Shown in pieces: positions 52,441 to 54,066 of a DNA stretch of 64,000 bases (the first letter of the stretch is position 1; each line of letters begins with the position of its first letter). Source of the stretch: Haloferax marinisediminis. GTDB taxonomy: Archaea; Halobacteriota; Halobacteria; Halobacteriales; Haloferacaceae. The position numbers and the translations under genes are program-made. Below the pieces are notes generated by a model. That model was not told where the DNA came from and did no database searches. It saw nothing but the letters and a program-made list of their open reading frames with translations. The stretch is taken from positions 1,612,001 to 1,676,000 of the forward strand of contig NZ_WKJP01000001.1 in the NCBI RefSeq assembly GCF_009674585.1, written 5' to 3'.

Positions 52441-52543
52441 GAGCCATCGGTTTCAAATCGCCTCGACGCGACGAACTCGATATGAACGATTGGGGCGCGA
52501 GTGGACCGACCCACGACTCGGGGGCGCTCGTGCAGGAGGCGCG

Positions 52544-52774
52544 ATGGTAGGGCCAAGTTTGAGTGACGACGAGATGCGACTCGCGAGTTCACGTCTCAGA
52601 ATCGGCTTCGTACTACTCGTTGGCGTGTCTGCTGGCCTCATCGCCGTCACTGCAGATGCGACGCTTCCACAGGTTGGTCTCGCGTTCGCCGGTGGGACTG
52701 TCCTCGGCATCGCACTCATGGTTTTTCTGTCGTACTGGGGCCGCGAGTTTACCAACGTGAATCGGCGTCGGTGA
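52544..52774 (+). CDS. Small two-span membrane protein
   Basis: A 76-residue protein starting at ATG 52544, supported by an AGGAGG ribosome-binding site 6-7 bases upstream. Two hydrophobic segments are evident (IGFVLLVGVSAGLIAVTA and LAFAGGTVLGIALMVFLSYW). The ends are charged. The pattern resembles haloarchaeal membrane proteins of unknown function. Confidence 0.7.
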   Translation: MVGPSLSDDEMRLASSRLRIGFVLLVGVSAGLIAVTADATLPQVGLAFAGGTVLGIALMVFLSYWGREFTNVNRRR

Positions 52775-52908
52775 GTTTCACCGAGAGGCAACGAACTGGT
52801 GAGGCGATGAAAAGACGACGTGGTGATAACTATCTGGTAATCGTGTCAATATTGTAATAAATATGCAAATAAGTAAGCTCGCCTGAACGAAGTTCGATGA
52901 ACCGCAGA

Positions 52909-52917
52909 ATATATATA
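52909..52917 (+). promoter_or_regulatory. Strong TATA box ahead of a structured non-coding region
   Basis: ATATATATA (52909-52917) is an AT-only box in a GC-rich genome and sits in an AT-rich stretch. No plus-strand ORF follows. The expected start is about 25 bases downstream, near 52940, exactly where a series of hairpins begins. Confidence 0.55.
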
Positions 52918-52939
52918 GATACATTGAGGACCGAATACC

Positions 52940-53109
52940 GCCGGTAACCAGGGCAGGGGCAACGACCTGGTTTTCAACCGGAATACGCTGGGTTGTGCCA
53001 GAGTTGGGCCTCTGTCACAAGACAGCGTACCTACCCAAGGTGCGTGTGCGACCTGAACCACGTTCAGAACCCGGACGCGCACCCTGATGGAGTTGCAGTC
53101 TCCTCAGGG
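52940..53109 (+). ncRNA. Candidate structured RNA of about 170 bases
   Basis: Four consecutive perfect or near-perfect hairpins are visible. (1) CCGGT-AACCAGG (52941-52952) with CCTGGTT (52966-52972) and ACCGG (52977-52981). (2) TACGCTG, TTGTG and CAGAG (52984-53003) with CTCTG, CACAA and CAGCGTA (53010-53029): 17 pairs with two small loops. (3) GGTGCGTG (53039-53046) with CGCGCACC (53076-53083), and CTGAAC/GTTCAG inside; a 3-base bulge plus GA on one side and GA on the other is k-turn-like. (4) CCCTGA-GGAG with CTCC-TCAGGG (53082-53109). I recognise no known RNA family. The rest of the gap 52775-52908 is AT-rich with no gene seen. Confidence 0.5.
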
Positions 53110-54066
53110 CGATACCCGAGCGATCCATCGCTCGGGGGCGTCCAATTCTGCATCAGTCGGCAAGTTCTCCGGATGGTCCCACACACGTGATGCGGCCGCG
53201 ATACCTCGTTTGTCTGCGACGTACTCGAAGAACCGAGCGCCGCGTTCGTACTGTCGGCGTTTGAGGCCGAGACCGAGTGCGCGTCGAGCGAGTTTTGCAA
53301 TTGGTCCACCACCTTGCCGTCGCTCGTCGAGTTTGCGGCGCAGGTCTTCGTACTCTTCGTCGAACGCGCGGTCCATCAGGAGTTCCGCGTAGCCTTCGAC
53401 GGACGTCATCGCCGTGTCGAGTTCGGCGAACGCATCTCGGTCGAGGTCACCCTCGACGAGTGCGTCGATACCGCGGTTCATCCGTTTTTCGAGGTGGGTC
53501 GAAAGCCACGGGGCCGCGCCGAACTCCGCGGCGTGCGACACCTCGTGGAAGGCGATCCAGCGGCGGAACCGTGGGTAGTCGACGTCGAGCGAATCGGCGA
53601 CGCGACGGATGTTCGGGTGGACGAAGTAGAGGCCGTGGTCGTCGTCGCCCTCGGCGAGGAGGAGAGGGTCGTACTGTCCGAGGACGTTGTTGCCGAGGAA
53701 CGAGAGGACGAGCGCGAACGTTCCGGTGTTGACCGCGCGGGTGACGCCCGGAAGCACCGAGGGACCGTGTTCCTCGAAGGGGGCCATAACTCGGCGGAAC
53801 GTTCTGACGTTGGCGTCTATCCAGTGGTGTCGGTTCTGTACCTCTACCACGTCGGGGACGTCGAACGACACCTCGGCGACCTCGGCGAGTCGGTCCCGTG
53901 CGTCTCGAACGTCAGATGCGTACCCCTCTCGTTCGGCAGCAGAGAGGTCGAGCGTACCCGGGTCTGTCGCTGCTCTCGCGGCTTCGCTGACGGCATCCCA
54001 GTCGATATTTCCGGTCCCCGTCGCCGAAGCGTCTGCGACGACTCGGACGCTCCGCAGGAAGTTCAT
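53104..54066 (-). CDS. DUF2342-type zinc metalloprotease-like protein
   Basis: A 320-residue protein with HEVSH (HExxH) near residue 175 and a downstream Glu-containing helix (SVEGYAELLMDRA) that could complete a zinc site. VTRAVNTGTFALVLSFLGNNVLGQYDPLLL precedes it. The pattern matches DUF2342, a family named after coenzyme F420 biosynthesis association in actinobacteria; that function is not demonstrated. A perfect 10-bp inverted repeat (53115-53124 with 53127-53136) is coded in its last residues. The stop codon lies inside hairpin 4 of the candidate RNA. Confidence 0.85.
   Translation of the reverse strand: MNFLRSVRVVADASATGTGNIDWDAVSEAARAATDPGTLDLSAAEREGYASDVRDARDRLAEVAEVSFDVPDVVEVQNRHHWIDANVRTFRRVMAPFEEHGPSVLPGVTRAVNTGTFALVLSFLGNNVLGQYDPLLLAEGDDDHGLYFVHPNIRRVADSLDVDYPRFRRWIAFHEVSHAAEFGAAPWLSTHLEKRMNRGIDALVEGDLDRDAFAELDTAMTSVEGYAELLMDRAFDEEYEDLRRKLDERRQGGGPIAKLARRALGLGLKRRQYERGARFFEYVADKRGIAAASRVWDHPENLPTDAELDAPERWIARVSP
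53115..53136. terminator. Perfect inverted repeat inside the 3' end of a gene
   Basis: CCCGAGCGAT and ATCGCTCGGG pair without mismatch around a 2-base centre. With the neighbouring hairpin 53082-53109 it would make two stacked stems in either transcription direction, between the candidate RNA and the DUF2342 gene. A bidirectional terminator is the simplest reading. Confidence 0.4.

Follow-up and report, generated by a model that had tools for sequence, protein, structure and literature searches.

What does the strongly folded stretch of about 175 nt that lies beside a metallopeptidase gene encode in Haloferax, and on what might it act? An initial annotation, made from the letters of the window (the whole 64-kb stretch of DNA analysed) and its open reading frames, had described a stand-alone non-coding RNA with a promoter of its own, perhaps new and perhaps bound by L7Ae. 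Here we compare the stretch with related genomes, and describe its fold, its distribution and its matches to the mRNA leaders of two S-layer glycoprotein genes, called F1 and F3 below. The features are collected in Table 1.

Setting and fold of the element

The AT-only TATA box noticed initially is a conserved one: relatives carry GGGTATATATCT at the same position, in the context CGCAG-N-TATATAT, when 12 Haloferax sequences are aligned. Transcription would start near 52938-52940, about 25 nt 3' of the box. On the 5' side the neighbour is a predicted gene of 94 amino acids on the same strand (52490-52774, +), for which searches of Pfam and NCBIfam gave no match. On the 3' side, the end of the RNA, that is the 3' strand of helix P1, overlaps the end of the coding sequence of the convergent metallopeptidase gene. 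The best matches of this gene are from Haloferax, at 87-95% identity, and those from other haloarchaeal genera reach at most 77%. Directly 3' of the RNA, and within the coding sequence of the metallopeptidase, there is a perfect 9-bp hairpin, CCCGAGCGA-UCCA-UCGCUCGGG (window 53116-53137). It could mark the RNA 3' end; a U run after it is absent.

Table 1. Features of the locus, in window coordinates, and the basis for each.
Feature	Position	Strand	Basis
TATA box of the RNA promoter, AT-only	52908..52917	+	sequence; position kept in 12 Haloferax
Structured non-coding RNA body, about 175 nt	52938..53112	+	12-species alignment, covariance model, pair counts
P1 closing helix, 5' strand (partner 53108-53112)	52938..52942	+	98% of cells paired, nearly invariant
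P2 hairpin	52943..52979	+	pairing in 100% of cells, nearly invariant
P2 loop segment GGGCAGGGG, complement of CCCCUGCCC, with which the F1 mRNA leader begins at its 5' end	52951..52959	+	invariant 9/9
P3 hairpin	52987..53027	+	sequence variable, pairing conserved; 10/13 pairs changed on both sides
P3 loop UUGGG, probable pseudoknot with CCCAA 53034-53038	53004..53008	+	both strands invariant 12/12
Linker CCUACCCAAGGU (CCTACCCAAGGT), equal to the F3 leader 5' end and complementary to predicted RNA2	53030..53041	+	53031-53041 invariant 11/11
P4 hairpin (stem 3 of the initial annotation, the supposed k-turn)	53041..53081	+	4 pairs changed on both sides
P5 hairpin	53084..53107	+	alignment and pair counts
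P5 segment GAUGGAGUUGCAGUC	53086..53100	+	invariant 15/15, outside coding sequence
P5 loop GUUGCAGUC, complement of GACUGCAAC, a site shortly before the F1 start codon	53092..53100	+	9-nt match
P1 closing helix, 3' strand (partner 52938-52942)	53108..53112	+	pair counts
Zincin-like metallopeptidase gene, convergent (PF10103, TIGR03883)	53104..54066	-	used for species tree

A stretch of 179 nt folds at -82 kcal/mol (z = -4.5), and none of 200 shuffled sequences was equally stable; the RNAs of relatives fold with z = -2.7 to -4.4. All four stems proposed initially are present. Together with the closing helix P1 and the pseudoknot they are paired in 97% of the cells of the alignment of 12 species. 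Changes on both sides of a pair, whose absence in relatives the initial annotation had named as evidence against an RNA, occur in 14 pairs and 35 cells (10 pairs in P3 and 4 in P4, its stems 2 and 3), a count that none of 500 shuffles reached. Since P1, P2, P5 and the pseudoknot hardly vary, they fit the data but are not proven by covariation. The loop UUGGG and the linker CCCAA probably form a 5-bp pseudoknot. As for the extent of the RNA, the start had been put near 52940 and this stands; the end, put at 53109, moves to 53112 or later, where the additional helix P1 closes the structure.

G-U cells outnumber A-C cells in the alignment (39 versus 10), which places the RNA on the + strand. A reading frame common across species was looked for and none was found, and no tRNA was found in the stretch, in agreement with what had been read from the window sequence. 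A search against Rfam gave no match at E ≤ 1. With the conserved TATA box and the compensatory changes, this supports a stand-alone non-coding RNA with its own promoter. The existence, fold, strand and distribution of the element are established by computation, as are the complementarities and the co-occurrence described below, and it is a genus-specific, conserved structured element that would be transcribed independently.

Distribution, origin and class

By DNA search, 12 of 15 Haloferax genomes carry the RNA, all at one locus, with 76-86% identity for the 11 besides the window's own. A further 44 genomes, from other genera, gave no match. A covariance model run with strict filters on 391 genomes of the class found these 12 Haloferax only and none of the 376 other haloarchaeal genomes. 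In the window's own genome the model found a single copy, with no paralogues. Matches to the loop pattern in other genera had three mismatches each, and those tested were partial or weak model matches. There was no match to plasmids. A mobile or viral origin was considered and rejected: the sole IMG/VR match is a chance one, of 23 bases only, in phage-type sequence.

In the metallopeptidase tree, the three Haloferax genomes that have no RNA form one nested clade. At their loci the promoter and the RNA are cleanly absent and the metallopeptidase gene is retained. The metallopeptidase loci of four outgroup genera are also without the RNA. Since the RNA-less genomes nest as one clade and the outgroups have no RNA, a gain at the base of Haloferax followed by a single loss is probable. 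The RNA is likewise missing from the loci of H. denitrificans, H. sulfurifontis and H. massiliensis. A list of H. mediterranei sRNAs (PMC5852579) has no entry between HFX_2748 and HFX_2851, the locus expected from gene order; that list was built by homology to sRNAs of other species and so could have missed the RNA. The RNA is probably new, as had been suspected, and lies outside Rfam.

To which class, then, does the element belong? It might be no RNA of its own but belong to the convergent metallopeptidase gene, as a 3' UTR or as an antisense element; it always adjoins this gene and overlaps its end. We give this reading little credence: the promoter on the + strand is conserved, the wobble pattern is that of the + strand, and three genomes keep the gene without the element. 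The proposal of an L7Ae k-turn RNP or rRNA guide RNA was prompted by stem 3, which can be drawn as a k-turn when the window sequence alone is considered, and it now appears improbable in the extreme. The 3' GA occurs in the window sequence only, relatives having CGGGU or CGGGC, so that a 3-nt bulge with conserved tandem G-A/A-G pairs was not found. For a box C/D guide (RUGAUGA and CUGA), the CUGAUGG of the window is replaced by UGUGAUGG, GCCGAUGG or UUAAGAUGG in relatives. For a box H/ACA guide, no conserved ANA follows P3, P4 or P5, and P2 has no pocket on its 5' side. In addition to the empty Rfam search, the ncRNAs annotated in H. gibbonsii LR2-5 are 7S, RNase P and one H/ACA RNA only (PMC7921747). 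A basic role in rRNA modification is argued against because one whole Haloferax clade has no RNA.

Matches to the leaders of two S-layer genes

Both loops of P2 and P5 match the F1 leader. The P2 segment is perfectly complementary to CCCCUGCCC in 11/11 F1 leaders, and the P5 loop has a perfect 9-nt match to GACUGCAAC in 11/11, at a site that starts 19-25 nt upstream of the AUG; in most species the latter is lengthened by pairing of GAUGG to CCAUC. The core duplexes have energies of -20.0 (P2/F1) and -13.3 kcal/mol (P5/F1), and the extended P5 duplex reaches -19.9; P5 matches F3 more weakly, with -11.7 to -17.0 against -21.9 for F1 in the five species compared. The predicted probability of being unpaired is 0.73-0.85 for GCAGGGG of P2 and 0.85-0.99 for the UUGCAGU loop of P5. 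By computation, then, each loop offers a conserved and accessible seed to a conserved site of the F1 leader in 11/11 species.

A search for the two sites in order retrieves the F1 leader from 11 of 12 RNA-bearing genomes, nothing from the three RNA-less Haloferax and a match in 1 of 376 others. In the twelfth RNA-bearing genome (G005, 720 contigs) an intact F1 leader was not recovered. By chance both sites occur in 2 of 20,000 shuffled leaders, and in 1 of 12,774 tiles of the window. In the predicted fold of the F1 leader the two sites lie at opposite ends of one long helix, and P2 and P5 adjoin at P1; a double kissing complex of the two loops with the leader is therefore a plausible geometry in the model. 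Because the seeds and the target sites are both invariant, this RNA-RNA pairing offers no covariation test.

The linker points to the other S-layer gene. Every RNA-bearing genome has 1-4 extra copies of its 12-mer, and the three RNA-less Haloferax have none; as a control, the reversed pattern gave 2 matches over all 15 genomes. Most extra copies lie in two S-layer contexts, F3 and F1; the remaining four are in other places, three of these where a coding sequence begins. Protein starts of the type MPTQG- that contain the 12-mer were taken as a coding coincidence, and the other places with exact GGGCAGGGGCAA are scattered sites with no recognised common function. The F3 copy forms the first bases past the promoter of the S-layer glycoprotein gene, GUACC-CCUACCCAAGGU-GA. 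The F1 copy has the second S-layer gene on one side and divergent pilin genes on the other. At least two S-layer paralogues are present in most RNA-bearing genomes, and the three RNA-less Haloferax have one csg-type gene each. A search of the S-layer regions against Rfam found nothing.

In H. gibbonsii ATCC 33959 two PilA-type pilin genes adjoin the F1 gene. In strain LR2-5 pilA3 and pilA4 adjoin HfgLR_11210, the receptor of the virus HFTV1, and two S-layer proteins are expressed (PMC9973310; PMC7921747). As both genes adjoin pilA genes, F1 is probably the orthologue of HfgLR_11210. All Haloferax S-layer mRNAs examined, those of RNA-less genomes included, appear to start with GUACCCCURC(C/U)CA, directly 3' of a promoter of the type C/AAAG(T/C)ATTTA (leaders L167-L192, with csg leaders L179-L181). 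The upstream region and leader of F1 occur twice in the window's genome, at C1:1356900-1358100 (L135) and C3:15700-16900 (L136). The second copy, at the end of a 17-kb contig, reflects either a repeat in the assembly or another S-layer locus.

When the 12-mer on the F1 side is read on the other strand, it follows a conserved promoter-like CACAAAGCATWTW by about 27 nt, with a predicted start at GCGCGUGCGCACGC. This second predicted small RNA, RNA2, reads GCGCGUGCGCACGCC-ACCUUGGGUAGG and continues into a hairpin, whose loop is of the UUCG type in most species. It is divergent from the F1 S-layer gene in the window's genome (L135) and at the orthologous loci L139, L141, L142, L147, L149, L151, L154, L156, L158 and L161. 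The hairpins of RNA2 are conserved, with three pairs doubly changed and wobble pairs that are U-G on the RNA2 strand. The idea that this is an upstream element on the F1 strand was dropped, the promoter motif and the wobble pattern placing it on the other strand. The first RNA is better supported, and RNA2 may be either an sRNA in its own right or the beginning of a long pilin leader. ACCUUGGGUAGG of RNA2 has a complement of 12-13 nt at the F3 mRNA 5' end in 10/11 species, and one of 12-19 nt in the linker of the first RNA. The linker is thus a copy of the F3-leader site and at the same time the complement of RNA2, itself a predicted RNA. When single sequences are folded, ACCUUGGGUAGG is left open or is partly paired, depending on the species.

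A proposed role and its relation to known systems

In our main reading the element, specific to the genus and transcribed on its own, is an RNA that acts in trans to regulate the two S-layer glycoprotein genes. Its action in the cell is deduced from sequence, and we put the probability of this reading at about 0.5. The compact fold would hold the loops of P2 and P5 side by side at the closing helix, from where they may pair with the 5' end of the F1 mRNA and with the site just upstream of its start codon. Because the latter pairing adjoins the AUG, translational repression of F1 is suggested, most likely through a block of initiation. The linker, a copy of the F3 mRNA 5' end, would titrate RNA2 or pair with it. 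The first RNA may thus sequester RNA2 or be sequestered by it, the other partner of RNA2 being the F3 mRNA. The net outcome would be a bias in which S-layer gets built. Deductions of this kind are also that the RNA is transcribed, that it pairs with these partners in the cell, that it represses and does not activate, that it serves as a sponge and that the outcome is S-layer choice.

A more complete scheme, which we consider possible but put forward tentatively, is a switch made of two RNAs: the first RNA would silence F1 by two kissing loops, RNA2 would act on the 5' end of the F3 mRNA, and the first RNA would titrate RNA2 through its copy of the F3 leader, so that the cell has one cell wall or the other and an altered susceptibility to viruses.

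Several findings count against the main reading. The complement of P5 has a background of about 1-3 coding-type matches per genome. The csg leader of the RNA-less genomes also has CCCCUGCCC; because that clade keeps it, the site must have another role too. In the fold predicted for the leader, roughly half of the bases of each F1 site are paired. The F3 leader in the window's own genome, CUACUCAAGG / CCUACUCAAGGU, differs from the motif by one change. Finally, the joint loss of the RNA and the F1/F3 genes counts as a single evolutionary event.

Other readings start from the same evidence. The RNA may be a structured RNP scaffold, or act in trans on an unrelated target, the S-layer matches being partly coincidental. 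Its compact fold, pseudoknot and invariant loops are typical of protein-binding RNAs, and a 9-nt match to a single leader is by itself expected in about 1% of shuffled leaders. We hold this to be unlikely, since three independent links, from the linker, the P2 loop and the P5 loop, lead to the same gene pair in 11 species. Slightly more doubtful is the reading that the RNA is a decoy for a protein which recognises single-stranded CCUACCCAAGG in front of a helix in both the F3 leader and the RNA; the RNA would titrate that protein, and the complementarity to F1 would be secondary. Consistent with a decoy, the motif is invariant and lies 5' of a helix in both molecules, and a GUACCCCURCCCA 5' end is common to S-layer leaders of all types, RNA-less genomes included. 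However, it leaves unexplained why the P5 loop is invariant and matches a site beside the F1 AUG, and why RNA2 exposes an exact antisense copy of the motif.

In H. gibbonsii, the control of the two S-layer genes has been stated to be unknown, including whether a cell has one or both (PMC9973310). If the regulatory reading is true, a regulator of the two S-layers, its pairing sites and the base changes with which to test it are identified, and control of an archaeal cell wall and of a virus receptor (HFTV1) would be exerted by a structured RNA, possibly with a sponge. In the literature searched by titles and abstracts, of which coverage was incomplete, no small RNA for an archaeal S-layer and no archaeal RNA sponge was found.

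The haloarchaeal intergenic sRNAs, such as sRNA132 (PMC6560208) and s479 (PMC8155600) of H. volcanii, resemble the RNA in being intergenic, in having their own promoter and in their presumed action in trans on mRNAs. No sequence relation to them was found, and the RNA differs in its strong fold with a pseudoknot and in its predicted S-layer mRNA targets. It is also absent from the H. volcanii-type genomes tested. Three genomes of the H. volcanii group, H. volcanii itself not among them, have no RNA, which gives a possible reason for its absence from H. volcanii-based lists. The archaeal L7Ae guide RNAs (box C/D and H/ACA) are likewise small and stem-rich, whereas the RNA has no conserved k-turn, boxes or ACA, is confined to one genus and was lost in one clade. 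In bacteria, sRNA sponges and target mimics carry a copy of an mRNA target site, and loop-kissing antisense RNAs have their seeds in hairpin loops. The RNA would resemble these in its predicted seeds in loops and in its copy of a putative target site that is complementary to another predicted sRNA. It is set apart from the bacterial cases in being archaeal and in having two loops that fit two sites of one leader.
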